49,201 bases of DNA from Candidatus Omnitrophota bacterium (lineage in GTDB: Bacteria; Omnitrophota; Gorgyraeia; Zapsychrales; Fredricksoniimonadaceae): positions 1 through 49,201 of the forward strand of contig CAIUQE010000002.1 in the NCBI GenBank assembly GCA_903901225.1. Direction: 5' to 3'. This document shows, piece by piece, positions 14,249 to 17,971 of the stretch. Every line of letters starts with the position of its first letter. Within the stretch, counting starts at the first letter, position 1. Under the pieces are notes generated by a model. That model worked only from the letters and a program-made list of their open reading frames with translations, was not told the DNA's origin and made no database searches. The position numbers were made by a program, and so were the translations under genes.

Positions 14249-14590
14249 TCAGCCTATCGCCACCCCTCCGCGCTCTTCCGTACGGATACGGACGGTCTGT
14301 TCCAGGGGCAGGACAAATATCTTGCCGTCCCCTGTTTCACCGGTCTTCGCGCCTTTGATGATCGCCTTGATGGCCGGCTCGACAAAGTTCTCGTTGACCG
14401 CGATCTCAAGACGGACCTTACGCAGAAGGTTCCCCATCTCTTTCGCGCCGCGGTAGATCTCGGTGACGCCCTTCTGACGGCCGTGCCCCAACACTTCGCT
14501 GACCGTTATCAGGTTGATCTCGGACTTGTACAACTCGTCCCGGACATCGTCAAGCTTGCCCGGCTGTATGATCGCAATGATCAATTTCAT
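14249..14590 (-). CDS. glnB: PII nitrogen signal protein
   Basis: Trimeric sensor of ATP/ADP and 2-oxoglutarate, 113 residues, likely a GlnK that gates the neighbouring AmtB. The T-loop reads [21 protein letters not shown]. Position 46 is Tyr, but position 51, the uridylylated Tyr in proteobacteria, is Glu, and position 49 is Ala. Known PII covalent modifications at these sites are therefore not possible, and control must be by ligand binding. AAAGGAG precedes the ATG. It lies 30 nt after amtB, the reverse of the common glnK-amtB order. Confidence 0.95.
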
Positions 14591-14620: not shown

Positions 14621-15847
14621 TTATTCCAACATTGTGTACGCGCGCTCATGATGCTCGGTAAGGTCAAGACCGACATCCTCGTCCTTGGTCGAGACCCTCA
14701 TGCCCAGGACAAGGTCAACCGCCTTGTACAGGATAGCCGTCACAATGCCCGAATAGATCAACGTGACCGCCACAGCCTTGAGCTGGATGATGAACTGCGC
14801 CGGGTTGCCGTAGAACCAGCCGTCATTACCGGCCGAATTCACGAGCTTGGTGGCAAAAAGGCCCGTGGCCAGTGCCCCCCAGATCCCGCCGATGCAATGC
14901 ACGCCGAACGCGTCAAGCGCGTCATCATACCCCAGCTTCGGCTTGATGATCGCGGCCGCAATATAACAGAACACGCTCACCAGCAGGCCGATGACCAAGG
15001 CCCCGGTGACATTCACGAAACCGGCCGCAGGCGTGATCGCGACAAGCCCCGCCACAGCGCCGGAACAAATACCGAACAAGGTCGGCTTTCCGTTACGGAA
15101 CCACTCGATGAACGCCCAGCTCAATCCCGCCGCCGCCGCTGCCGTATTGGTCACGACGAACGCGTTCGTCGCGAGCCCGTTGGCCGCGAGAGCAGAACCG
15201 GCATTGAACCCGAACCAGCCGAACCACAAGAGAGCCGTACCCAGCGCCACGAACGGAAGGTTGTGCGGCGAGGGGATATGCTTGTCGGCATTCTTGCGCG
15301 GACCGATCATCAGCGCGGTGATCAGCGCCGCGATACCGGCATTGATGTGCACGACCGTACCACCGGCGAAGTCAAGCGCGCCAAGATTACGCAAGAACCC
15401 GCCCATGCCCCATACCCAGTGGCAGATCGGCGCGTAGACCAGCGTCAGCCACAGAGCCATGAAAACGACAAAGGAAGAGAACTTCATCCTTTCCGCGAAG
15501 GCACCGAGGATCAGCGCCGGCGTGATGACCGCGAACATGGCCTGGAAGATCATGAAGGCCTGATGCGGGATGGTGGCCGAATAATCGTTATACGGTTCAA
15601 CACCCACGCCATTCAACAGGGACCACTGGAACCCACCCCAAAACCCGGTACCAGGGGCGAACGACAAGCTGTAGCCGTAAACCACCCACAGCACGCTGAC
15701 CAGGCAGAGCACAAAGAAGCACTGCATTAAAATACTCAACACGTTCTTTCTCCTGACCATCCCTCCGTAGAAGAAAGCCAGCCCCGGTGTCATGAGCATG
15801 ACAAGGGCCGTCGAAACCAGAACCCAAGCTGTATCTCCTGCATTCAT
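14621..15847 (-). CDS. amtB: Ammonium transporter
   Basis: Inner-membrane ammonium channel/transporter of 408 residues with 11 predicted helices. The twin pore histidines are His168 (GGTVVHINAG) and His317 (DAFGVHCIGG). The C-terminal tail (RVSTKDEDVGLDLTEHHERAY) is the conserved segment that contacts PII. AGGAG stands before ATG 15847. Expression is probably controlled by the long structured leader and attenuator upstream, and activity by the adjacent PII protein. Confidence 0.96.
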   Translation of the reverse strand: MNAGDTAWVLVSTALVMLMTPGLAFFYGGMVRRKNVLSILMQCFFVLCLVSVLWVVYGYSLSFAPGTGFWGGFQWSLLNGVGVEPYNDYSATIPHQAFMIFQAMFAVITPALILGAFAERMKFSSFVVFMALWLTLVYAPICHWVWGMGGFLRNLGALDFAGGTVVHINAGIAALITALMIGPRKNADKHIPSPHNLPFVALGTALLWFGWFGFNAGSALAANGLATNAFVVTNTAAAAAGLSWAFIEWFRNGKPTLFGICSGAVAGLVAITPAAGFVNVTGALVIGLLVSVFCYIAAAIIKPKLGYDDALDAFGVHCIGGIWGALATGLFATKLVNSAGNDGWFYGNPAQFIIQLKAVAVTLIYSGIVTAILYKAVDLVLGMRVSTKDEDVGLDLTEHHERAYTMLE

Positions 15848-15913
15848 TAGACCACTCCTGTTTTATTACTGTTAAACGTTTGATGATACTGAACGGGAGG
15901 CGCGCTGCTGGCA

Positions 15914-15957
15914 CAAAATAAACAAGCGCCTCCAATTCACCTGTGAATTGAAGACGC
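15914..15957 (-). terminator. Attenuator terminator in the amtB leader
   Basis: A 14-bp uninterrupted stem (15926-15939 with 15944-15957, two G-U pairs) closes a CAGG loop. On minus it is followed by TTGTTTATTTTG. It lies 66 nt before the amtB start, so it would stop transcription ahead of the gene. Confidence 0.65.
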
Positions 15958-15968
15958 CTTTGTCTTCA
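15949..15968 (-). promoter_or_regulatory. ANTAR-type hexaloop hairpin (antiterminator)
   Basis: TGAAGAC and GTCTTCA pair perfectly (7 bp) around the hexaloop AAAGGC. Known ANTAR-protein targets have two hairpins with six-base loops carrying A at position 1 and G at position 4; this loop fits. Its 3' arm is also part of the terminator 5' arm, so the two cannot form together. A first hairpin is uncertain: a 3-bp stem at 15981-15992 has loop AGGGAC, which also fits A1/G4 but is weak. Confidence 0.5.
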
Positions 15969-16106
15969 GCCCTTTTAAGAGCCGTCCCTGGCGGGACTAT
16001 GTAAAGCTTCTTTACTTTATCTTCACGGACAGCCATCGCCCGTTATTTTCACGGCCTATTCGGCCGTGCTAGGACCCATAAATAAGGGATCCACTGAGAT
16101 GATTTA

Positions 16107-16135
16107 AATATACACTTCATTCGAAAAGAAATCAA
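16107..16135 (-). promoter_or_regulatory. Promoter of amtB-glnB
   Basis: -35 TTGATT (plus 16130-16135) and -10 TATATT (plus 16107-16112) are spaced by 17 nt. This is a sigma70-type match; no sigma54 GG-N10-GC element was noticed. Confidence 0.65.
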
Positions 16136-16245: not shown

Positions 16246-16497
16246 ATGTTCATTCCGGAATTACTCATGATCATCCCGCTTCTCATCGTCCTCAGTATTT
16301 TTGGGCTTTCTTTCGTATTCCTGCCTACTATAGTAGCTATTGTCCGCAAGCACCGGCAGGTCGTCCCGATCCTGATCCTCAATATCCTCCTCTGGTGGAC
16401 GTTCATCGCCTGGGCCGTGGCCCTGGCCTGGGCGTTCGTCAAGGAAGACAAAGCCCCCGAATCCCTACCTCCATCGCAAGATACTGTTGCAAAGTAA
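16246..16497 (+). CDS. Superinfection-immunity-like small membrane protein
   Basis: Eighty-three residues with two helices. The segment FLPTIVAIVRKHRQ, then ILILNILLWWTFIAWAVALAWAF, matches the Imm superinfection-immunity family, first known from a phage protein that blocks DNA entry but widespread in bacterial chromosomes with unproven function. No ribosome site precedes the ATG, and the promoter places transcription start on it. The C-terminal tail is soluble and Pro/Ser-rich. It converges with spoVG across a large hairpin. Confidence 0.75.
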   Translation: MFIPELLMIIPLLIVLSIFGLSFVFLPTIVAIVRKHRQVVPILILNILLWWTFIAWAVALAWAFVKEDKAPESLPPSQDTVAK

Positions 16498-16510: not shown

Positions 16511-16607
16511 AGAGGGGCGCTCATTGCCTTATCCTTTGATAACGCACCCCCAGGCCTTTACCGGCCCCCGCCGGAAAAGGGCGTACCAATTGACTGAGCG
16601 CCCCTCT
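16511..16607 (-). repeat. 97-nt inverted-repeat structure, likely spoVG terminator or small RNA
   Basis: A perfect 13-bp inverted repeat (16511-16523 with 16595-16607) encloses 71 nt. Inside, CCGGC/GCCGG (16561-16565, 16570-16574) with a CCCC loop extends through CCTTT/AAAGG after one mismatch. On minus the closing stem is followed by TTTTATT, so it may terminate spoVG. The size and internal structure are more elaborate than a simple terminator. SRP RNA motifs were not found. Confidence 0.6.
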
Positions 16608-16611
16608 AATC

Positions 16612-16872
16612 TCAATTCTCTTTACGATAATGTTCCATCACCTTGTCAGAAAGGTCCTGGTAGACCGCGACAGAACGGCAAACAACCTGGTCATACCAGC
16701 GATTATCCTTTCCCTGTTCCTGCGGCATGGAAACAAAAAACCCTTTCTTGCCTTCAAGCAGGCGAACCCCGCGGATCACGAGGGCGTCGTTCACCGCCAC
16801 ATCCGCGAACGCCTTCAAATTCCCCGCATCGGGCAACCGATACATCTTCTCAACATGGAACGTTAACGACAT
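16612..16872 (-). CDS. spoVG: SpoVG-family nucleic-acid-binding protein
   Basis: The 86 residues match SpoVG: KAFADVAVNDALVIRGVRLLEGKKGFFVSMP corresponds to the family's core strands and the GLFVAMP motif, followed by a C-terminal helix. SpoVG proteins bind DNA and RNA as small regulators; the name comes from Bacillus sporulation, which is not implied here. AAGGAGG lies five nt before ATG 16872. It is transcribed alone, divergent from the HTH-cupin regulator with a shared intergenic region. Confidence 0.88.
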   Translation of the reverse strand: MSLTFHVEKMYRLPDAGNLKAFADVAVNDALVIRGVRLLEGKKGFFVSMPQEQGKDNRWYDQVVCRSVAVYQDLSDKVMEHYRKEN

Positions 16873-17075: not shown

Positions 17076-17627
17076 ATGCAGCAATTAGGCACCCACATCC
17101 AGGAAATAAGAAAACTCAGACGGATATCCCTGACCGAACTGGCCAAGACCAGCGGCGTACAGATCGCCACTTTGTCACGCATCGAGAACGGCAAAATGAC
17201 CGGGACCCTGGCCTCGCACCTGAGCATCGCAAAAGCCCTTGGCGTCGATATCACCGAACTTTACCAGGGCTTGCGGGAAAAAACACCGGATCCCATCAAG
17301 GCTAACTCTCCCCTGGAATCCATTTCCACGACAAATGACAAAGTTTCCTGCGAGATCCTGGCGCGCCAGGCCTCGACCAGGAAGATGCTGCCCACCCTGC
17401 TCAAGATCGAAGGGAAAGGCACAACCTCCCAGGAACAGCGTGAAGCGCTCTCCGAACGCTTTGTTTACGTACTTGAGGGCACGGTCATCGTTAAAGTGAA
17501 AGACCAGGCGATACGTCTGGAAAAGAATTCCTCACTTTACTTCAACGCCTCCATGCCTCATGTGATCGAGAACCCCAACAGCCAGACAGCGAAACTCCTT
17601 TCTGTACTGACGCCGGTATCCCTATGA
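17076..17627 (+). CDS. XRE-family regulator with cupin sensor domain
   Basis: A 183-residue transcription factor. The helix-turn-helix spans about residues 8-57 (IQEIRKLRRISLTELAKTSG ... LSRIENGK). The C-terminal cupin (about 95-180) includes SERFVYVLEGTVIVKVKDQ and a final His-containing strand (ASMPHVIENP). Cupins of this type bind a small ligand or metal; the ligand is not evident. Start chosen for AAGGAGG upstream. It overlaps the next gene by ATGA, so the two are co-translated. Divergent from spoVG, which it might regulate (inference). Confidence 0.88.
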   Translation: MQQLGTHIQEIRKLRRISLTELAKTSGVQIATLSRIENGKMTGTLASHLSIAKALGVDITELYQGLREKTPDPIKANSPLESISTTNDKVSCEILARQASTRKMLPTLLKIEGKGTTSQEQREALSERFVYVLEGTVIVKVKDQAIRLEKNSSLYFNASMPHVIENPNSQTAKLLSVLTPVSL

Positions 17628-17971
17628 GCCCCGTCCTCATTTTTGCCGCGGATGAGACCACCCGTGAAGCATTAAAATCCGCCCTGTCACTCCACCTGCC
17701 GCTGATCGTCACGGAAGACCGCGCCCAGTGCCTTGAAGCTGTCGGGCAAAATATCCCGATCCTGAAAGCTTTTATTGGCGTGAGGGCCATCGAAGACGCG
17801 TCTGAACTGGATATTTTCGGTGAGATCGCCGCGTTAAGGCCGGGATTGAAGATGATCGCTATCGGGGATCAACATACGGAAGACGCGGCTGTGGAAGCCG
17901 TCGAGCGCGGCGCCGCAGGCTACATGCTCCTGCCTCTCAATGACGCTGAGATCTTGACGGCGGCGCGCTGA
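17624..17971 (+). CDS. Receiver-like protein lacking phosphorylation residues
   Basis: The 115 residues have the alternating strand-helix pattern and the ending ERGAAGYMLLPLNDAEIL, like the end of response-regulator receivers (GA.GYL.KP.....L). The expected phospho-acceptor Asp in strand 3 is not found (LKAFIGVRA instead), and the conserved Lys of the KP motif is Leu. It is therefore a pseudo-receiver, probably a protein-interaction partner of the coupled HTH-cupin. No output domain follows; in particular no ANTAR domain. Its last 35 bp overlap the convergent gene on minus. Confidence 0.65.
   Translation: MSPVLIFAADETTREALKSALSLHLPLIVTEDRAQCLEAVGQNIPILKAFIGVRAIEDASELDIFGEIAALRPGLKMIAIGDQHTEDAAVEAVERGAAGYMLLPLNDAEILTAAR

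Follow-up and report, generated by a model that had tools for sequence, protein, structure and literature searches.

We report that the leader of the amtB-glnB operon of a Candidatus Omnitrophota bacterium (GenBank assembly GCA_903901225.1, 2.38 Mb, 94.84% complete) is predicted to be a transcription antiterminator responding to an ANTAR-domain protein, a reading to which we assign a probability of roughly 0.86. The operon lies on the minus strand of contig CAIUQE010000002.1, of which positions 1 to 49,201 of the forward strand (49,201 nucleotides, nt; hereafter the window) were analysed. It comprises the regulated gene amtB, encoding an ammonium transporter of 408 amino acids (aa) (14621-15847; Pfam Ammonium_transp 449.9 bits, NCBIfam TIGR00836 above cut-off), and, next on the same strand, glnB/glnK for a PII protein of 113 aa (14249-14590; Pfam P-II 94.3 bits). 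The anatomy of the leader, its conservation and covariation, the presence of one ANTAR gene, a shared motif and gene linkage were computed, and from these we infer RNA binding, the direction of control, the ligands, the promoter and a protein dimer.

Read 5' to 3', the leader carries a promoter candidate, a hairpin termed P0, the ANTAR-type hairpins H1 and H2, two further hairpins, H3, an intrinsic terminator and its T-rich tract. H3, the antiterminator hairpin (TGAAGAC-AAAGGC-GTCTTCA; 15949-15968; sequence, fold and alignment), consists of seven perfect pairs closing a hexaloop whose first base is A and whose fourth is G (A1/G4), just as the original prediction had described it. The terminator stem-loop (15924-15959), with its T-rich tract (GTTTATTTTG; 15914-15923), begins its 5' arm within the H3 loop and continues through the 3' arm of H3; the two structures have 15949-15959 in common and are mutually exclusive, so the overlap upstream of amtB-glnB that had been proposed is borne out, with the correction that the stem, given as 14 bp, comprises 15 pairs when folded and 16 when scanned with G-T pairs allowed. 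Further upstream are H2 (TAAAGT-AAAGAA-GCTTTA, six pairs, A1/G4 hexaloop; 16002-16019), identified by fold and by a match to the search model R1 described below, and H1 (ACGGGC-GATGGCT-GTCCGT; 16025-16043; fold and alignment) with a 7-nt loop. H2 and H3, with six and seven pairs, conform to the dual-hexaloop ANTAR target of PMC3369931 (stems of at least 3 bp, six-base loops, A1 and G4). The original prediction, which named a single hairpin and did not include H1, H2 or the two hairpins between H2 and H3, is corrected to an array of three target hairpins. P0 (16050-16068), a 7-bp hairpin with a GAATA pentaloop that is conserved in alignments of the family leaders, does not fit the ANTAR loop rule and sits directly upstream of H1 in the family; with its GAANA-type pentaloop and variable outer stem it presumably resembles a GNRA-like fold. 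A putative sigma-70-type promoter (TTGATT-17-TATATT; 16107-16135) was found at a chance number in a consensus scan (1 vs 1.1 expected), and a TATA element is likewise present in most family leaders that extend that far upstream. The 3' arm of the terminator can also pair with downstream sequence (15896-15933; -17.9 kcal/mol alone); this alternative hairpin constitutes a third exclusive structure, and similar complementarity was seen by eye in two genomes of the same genus (G003 and G001).

If the transcript is taken to end at the T tract, the predicted energies are -67.2 kcal/mol for the terminator fold and -58.6 kcal/mol with H3 enforced, a protein-free advantage of 8.6 kcal/mol for the terminator. 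The window by itself is weak evidence, and the significance comes from relatives. Specifically, the folding z-score of the leader is -2.38, and one terminator-like site was found in 901 bases where 0.6 were expected. Taken singly, A1/G4 hairpins with either of two common types of stem occur in the whole genome at chance numbers relative to backwards-read patterns (22 vs 24 and 24 vs 22), and for this reason the single hairpin was dropped as evidence. When 40 of the 46 single-hairpin matches were inspected as loci, two, both in the leader of the gene for glutamine synthetase III (GSIII), combined a T-rich tract with a second A1/G4 hairpin at a distance of 15-40 nt, and one more (L295) had a nearby hairpin and no T-rich tract; for H3 of the window, the only match within 15-40 nt lies inside its own terminator, with H2 and H1 at 52 and 76 nt upstream.

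Relatives were represented by 102 amtB leaders (450 nt each, one 226 nt; that of the window included) from 74 of the 92 genomes searched. There were 117 amtB matches in total, and 13 partial ones, a weak full-length match (G084:C9) and one cut by a contig end (L105) were left out. Hexaloop hairpins with at least five pairs were sorted into 16 classes by loop positions 1 and 4, with expectations from dinucleotide shuffles. The A/G class ranked first, with 145 hairpins vs 19.1 expected (7.6-fold), followed by G/G (52 vs 15.3), while the other fourteen classes were at 0.5- to 1.8-fold. At least one A/G hairpin was present in 77 of the 102 leaders vs 17% of the shuffles, and at least two in 44 vs 1.6%. 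A1/G4 pairs spaced 18-35 nt numbered 54 vs 1.25 expected (0-10 for eight other classes tried) and occurred in 34 leaders, or 48 when G was also permitted at position 1. The same tendency was seen around the regulator genes: in the 48 intergenic regions before amtB or GSIII within 80 regulator loci, 23 A1/G4 pairs were found in 22.7 kb (1.01/kb; at least one pair in 18 of the 48), vs 46 pairs in 1730 kb, both strands (0.027/kb), for the remainder of these loci.

Covariation was counted on a MAFFT alignment (A4) of 13 of the 15 closest amtB leaders (L032-L046), excluding L034, where another gene lies between leader and amtB, and L046, where H1 and H2 could not be recognised; the 500 shuffles used for comparison were uncorrected for relatedness. 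For P0, H1, H2 and H3 taken together, 92.3% of the cells were paired and 11 were changed on both sides vs 3.4 in shuffles (0/500 reaching 11), and for the terminator the corresponding values were 94.2% and 21 vs 8.6 (0/500 reaching 21). H1, H3 and the terminator thus covary modestly, with double-sided changes at six terminator pairs and at two of the seven pairs of H3, the hairpin for which the original prediction had proposed covariation as a check. H2, found in 10 of the 13 leaders, is nearly invariant. In P0 four inner pairs are constant in all 12 rows that have letters, one pair is double-changed and one is broken in 4/12 as aligned. T-rich tracts accompany the terminators, the H1 loop is six bases long in 11 of the 13 leaders, and H3 lies 85-251 nt upstream of the start codon. 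Loop position 4 is G in 36/36 H1, H2 and H3 loops, and position 1 is A in 26, G in nine and T in one. The G4 of H3 is constant in 13/13 leaders while its partner in the terminator is U in eight, C in four and non-standard in one; terminator pairing alone is therefore insufficient to explain G4.

A single ANTAR (PF03861) match was found in the assembly (72.6 bits in the genome search, 69 with hmmscan; cut-off 27.3), in a protein with the Pfam domain make-up GAF-GAF-ANTAR. The ANTAR gene that had been anticipated is thus present, and neither of the two findings named as refuting the original prediction (no covariation in H3, no ANTAR gene) was obtained. What had been expected to be a response regulator is instead a one-component protein, since a Pfam scan of it showed no receiver domain, so that it is not a receiver-ANTAR (REC-ANTAR) protein of the GnfR type. 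Its ANTAR part aligns with a putative antiterminator (1s8n), NasR (4akk) and EutV (6wsh). R142, K149, E160 and Y164 of EutV, which are reported to coordinate or stack on G4 (PMC8934654), are all identical in this protein according to the 6wsh alignment, with the EutV numbering derived by fitting the residue names given in that report. The predicted structure (mean pLDDT 81.2, pTM 0.51; 14 sequences) has a long helix running from the second GAF domain into the ANTAR helices; its best PDB matches were tandem-GAF structures, and no ANTAR structure was among the 50 matches listed. GAF1 is closest to PtsP GAF domains (NCBIfam ptsP model 2e-35, best stretch 19-179), whereas the NifA model hits residues 187-378 (1.8e-29); both matches are below the whole-protein cut-offs, as expected of a part. 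Glutamine acts via the GAF domain of EI-Ntr (PMC4848567), and 2-oxoglutarate is bound by that of NifA (PMC8219145). By analogy, the signal may be glutamine (GAF1, PtsP-like) and/or 2-oxoglutarate (GAF2, NifA-like). At one regulator locus (L138:3217-7905) genes for an ETF fusion and an ETF-QO-like protein immediately precede the ANTAR gene on its strand, the latter sharing four bases with it, and a redox link has been considered for these genes.

The search model R1 was built solely from 27 hairpin pairs of the relatives' amtB leaders (27 of 37 candidate pairs, the rest being judged spurious or duplicate); alignment A2, for which sequences had been picked for pairing, went into the search model and was kept out of all covariation counts. 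Among the 150 of 572 candidates scored in the whole 2.38-Mb genome, the highest-ranking was the amtB leader (H1 and H2, 29.1 bits), followed by the ANTAR-GSIII leader and, in third place, by a site preceding an ATP-grasp gene. The second site sits between the ANTAR gene and the adjoining GSIII gene, the only one in the genome; this leader has a T run and carries A1/G4 hairpins (agggcAATGATgtcct), flanked by others at 35 nt on the upstream side (loop AGCGCG) and at 22 nt on the downstream side (loop AAAGAT). At the third site gggtAATGAGgccc overlaps a -20.3 kcal/mol terminator with a T run, and its would-be partner hairpin fails to fold alone; the gene behind it encodes CP_ATPgrasp_2 and is followed by Alpha-E and transglutaminase genes (L315:3523-7528, contig C48). 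Dismissal of this match (18.8 bits) as chance was considered and rejected, given its overlap with a strong terminator before the ATP-grasp gene, and the ATP-grasp/Alpha-E/transglutaminase cluster is, judged by its leader, putatively linked to nitrogen control. In the leader of a second operon, amtB2-glnB, the terminator has at its foot a hairpin of three pairs (GGC-AATGAT-GCC), and GGC-ANNGNN-GCC was present in all 10 aligned amtB2-type leaders (the alignment covering 10 of 14 such leaders). The versions of the motif before amtB2 and the ATP-grasp operon are weaker. Among other nitrogen regulators, the NtrC model gave 44 matches in this genome, all within the first 152 of its 463 positions and none over the cut-off, and the GlnD model gave one 200-position match and none over the cut-off; NifH-family matches were partial only (best 35.6 bits).

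In the more complete genomes, regulator and motif also tend to occur together. Of the 47 genomes with a completeness of 90% or more and a contamination of 5% or less, 40 had both amtB and ANTAR, three amtB only, one ANTAR only and three neither (Fisher p 0.005), and R1 matches occurred in 20/41 with and 0/6 without ANTAR (p 0.03); over all 92 genomes, of which 39 had R1 matches at E 0.5, the latter association was not significant (34/74 vs 5/18, p 0.19), and none of these genome-level tests was corrected for phylogeny. Of 216 confirmed regulator loci the best 80 were considered, many of them truncated where a contig ends. Counting only the genes that were searched for, the next one after ANTAR was amtB in 29 of the 80 and GSIII in 19, and the order ANTAR-amtB-glnB-GSIII was found in 13. 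Of the 64 loci among the 80 with at least 58% identity, 57 were labelled Omnitrophota or Omnitrophica, and the others included Elusimicrobia, Planctomycetales and a Woesearchaeota bin; beyond Omnitrophota-like loci an A1/G4 pair was found downstream of the regulator in 4/15 (L251-L266, L254 left out), and we make no claim for those groups.

Eighteen R1 matches that were not before amtB, chosen by position, were followed by GSIII in four cases, nifH in two and carA in one, which makes seven clear nitrogen genes. The remainder were followed by genes for an HMGL-like protein, a BBP2 porin, Gcw_chp, a Pyr_redox_2 protein, a PAS-LuxR regulator, a DUF2126-transglutaminase protein (G024, L316) and, at 652 nt, an AsmA-like protein (one each), by genes without a Pfam match in three cases and by no usable frame in one. 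The two nifH genes (L179 of G007 and L172 of G015) have R1 matches upstream (E 0.17 and 0.035) together with terminator-like sequence, and this arrangement in two relatives suggests that nitrogen fixation may be under antitermination control there.

The spacing of the hairpins differs along the array. The loops of H1 and H2 start 24 nt apart with a linker of 5 nt; in eutP of Enterococcus faecalis the loops likewise start 24 nt apart (A29 and A53), and the hairpin linkers of the E. faecalis eut genes are 5-12 nt as described in PMC3369931. Lengthened linkers abolish EutV action according to PMC3369931 and PMC8934654. The loops of H2 and H3, on the other hand, start 52 nt apart with a linker of 33 nt, of which 5 nt remain unpaired if the two predicted spacer hairpins (15984-15997 and 15968-15983, the last base of the latter being the first of H3) fold. 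In relatives that are free of the insert (three rows) the H2-H3 linker is 6-9 nt, and in three rows without H2 the H1-H3 linker is 10-15 nt. In the seven rows that have an insert, folding closes it up as a single hairpin or a pair of them, so that 4-14 nt stay unpaired (5 nt for the window), and for each row at most 3% of shuffled linkers fold equally well. We infer that the inserted hairpins act as spacers that preserve the working distance between H2 and H3. This suggests that a long linker may be acceptable in an ANTAR target if it folds up, a point that would bear on motif searches with a fixed linker length.

Taken together, the predicted mechanism is as follows. Transcription would start upstream of P0. 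When nitrogen is sufficient, the nascent RNA would fold the 15-16-bp terminator and the polymerase would halt ahead of amtB. When nitrogen is limiting, the GAF-GAF-ANTAR protein, presumably dimeric, would bind the loops of H1, H2 and H3 via the conserved G4 and the usual A1, with the inserted hairpins holding H2 and H3 ≈5 unpaired nt apart despite the 33 nt between them. The bound protein would keep H3 closed and the 5' arm of the terminator occupied, resulting in read-through into amtB-glnB. The same protein would switch on GSIII in this genome, and probably also amtB2-glnB and the ATP-grasp/Alpha-E/transglutaminase operon.

Several observations weigh against this interpretation. In the leader itself, the T tract is interrupted, H1 has G1/G4 in a 7-nt loop and so breaks the strict loop rule for lack of A1, and the minimum-energy fold of the full-length leader contains H3 and not the terminator, because of the downstream alternative hairpin, which is part of that fold. 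In the alignment no H2 pair has changes on both sides; 'further pair types' were reached by 390/500 shuffles for the hairpins and 220/500 for the terminator, and terminator 'pairs with a change on both sides' by 83/500. The EutV contacts R168, R175 and R177 correspond to H, C and T in the protein, and N173 to D. The whole-genome E-values of R1 are weak (0.033 for the amtB leader, then 0.48 and 3.28; 150 of 572 candidates scored), and the amtB2 leader was not reported by R1 at E 10. Moreover, 40 of the 74 ANTAR-bearing genomes lack an R1 match and 5 of the 18 ANTAR-negative genomes (68, 77, 84, 85 and 88% complete) have one, and in G060 (95% complete) such hairpins precede one amtB and ANTAR was not found.

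An ordinary constitutive terminator with a chance hairpin in its stem and no regulation would agree with the chance numbers both of terminator-like sites in the region and of single hairpins of this type genome-wide. It is nevertheless hardly tenable in view of the covariation and loop-letter conservation throughout the family, the enrichment of A/G loops in the amtB leaders and the recurrence of the motif in the GSIII leader; in addition, in G002 (L270) an H3-type hairpin (gaagacAAAGGCgtcttc) is kept at -963, before a 255-aa frame that lies between the hairpin and amtB. A metabolite riboswitch, e.g. a glutamine-binding RNA, might control the same terminator without a protein, and the position of the leader, the target genes and P0 as an additional conserved hairpin would fit; but no Rfam family was found in the window at the gathering threshold, a permissive scan of the leader turned up two matches, both below threshold and to unrelated families, and what is conserved is not one compact fold but a repetition of small hexaloop hairpins in which the loop letters are fixed and the distance to the gene varies, frequently next to an ANTAR gene, which makes a riboswitch very improbable. 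Binding of the ANTAR protein might also act on translation or RNA stability instead of termination, as other ANTAR targets are reported without a terminator, some of them near ribosome-binding sites (PMC3369931). We give this little credence, given that H3 overlaps a conserved terminator stem with T-rich tracts in the 13 aligned leaders and lies 85-251 nt upstream of the start codon. The reading that we prefer thus remains ANTAR-responsive antitermination.

A wider proposal is tentative, and we consider it somewhat less probable than its negation: general nitrogen control in Omnitrophota might operate mainly at the RNA level, with one tandem-GAF ANTAR protein directly sensing glutamine (GAF1) and 2-oxoglutarate (GAF2), antiterminating ammonium uptake, GSIII, the ATP-grasp operon and, where present, nitrogenase, and replacing the NtrC/GlnD cascade. 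Such a protein would read arrays of two, three or more hexaloops, the spacing of which would be kept by exchangeable spacer hairpins.

Other features were noted upstream of the leader. A small membrane-protein-like frame (16246-16497, plus strand) and an 86-aa frame that appears SpoVG-like by eye (16612-16872, minus strand) are separated by a long inverted repeat (≈16511-16605), and an XRE-type regulator with, by eye, a cupin-like C-terminal part is encoded at 17076-17971 (plus strand). The short frame after it weakly matches the receiver part only of the NtrC model (E 5e-6), and nothing in Pfam.

The open-access literature, to which the search was confined (subscription papers being outside its scope), yielded nothing joining Omnitrophota and ANTAR, and for the ANTAR domain and Nitrospira nothing related, judging by title; an Omnitrophota survey (PMC10066038) contained none of the five nitrogen and regulation terms looked for. 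For an uncultured phylum, the present data propose a nitrogen-control circuit definite enough to be tested, along with a predicted regulon. One protein with two GAF domains is the predicted sensor; these domains are similar to the GAF of EI-Ntr, which responds to glutamine, and to that of NifA, which binds 2-oxoglutarate.

The kind of switch is already known; the present case differs in that the regulator is a one-component tandem-GAF protein with linked targets, that the hairpins form arrays of three and that the spacers are folded. In Geobacter, GnfR, a two-component response regulator, acts by ANTAR antitermination on genes of nitrogen fixation and assimilation. ANTAR targets before P-II and ammonium-transporter genes have been described in other bacteria (Ramesh et al. 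2012, PMC3369931); the ANTAR regulons predicted there for Desulfotomaculum and Pelobacter include ammonium-transporter, P-II, glutamine/glutamate synthase and nitrogenase targets, with several sites per transcription unit, as here, although in other organisms. NasR of Klebsiella oxytoca (PMC7496416) is, like the present protein, a one-component ANTAR regulator of a nitrogen pathway that acts by transcription attenuation; it has a NIT nitrate sensor and other target genes, whereas tandem GAF domains are found here. Finally, the EutV/eutP leader of E. faecalis, as portrayed in PMC3369931, shares with the amtB leader the A1/G4 hexaloop hairpins, the last of which overlaps the terminator, and the 24-nt spacing of H1 and H2; EutV belongs to a REC-ANTAR two-component system, in contrast to the GAF-GAF-ANTAR protein, the three hairpins and the 33-nt H2-H3 linker folding into hairpins reported here.
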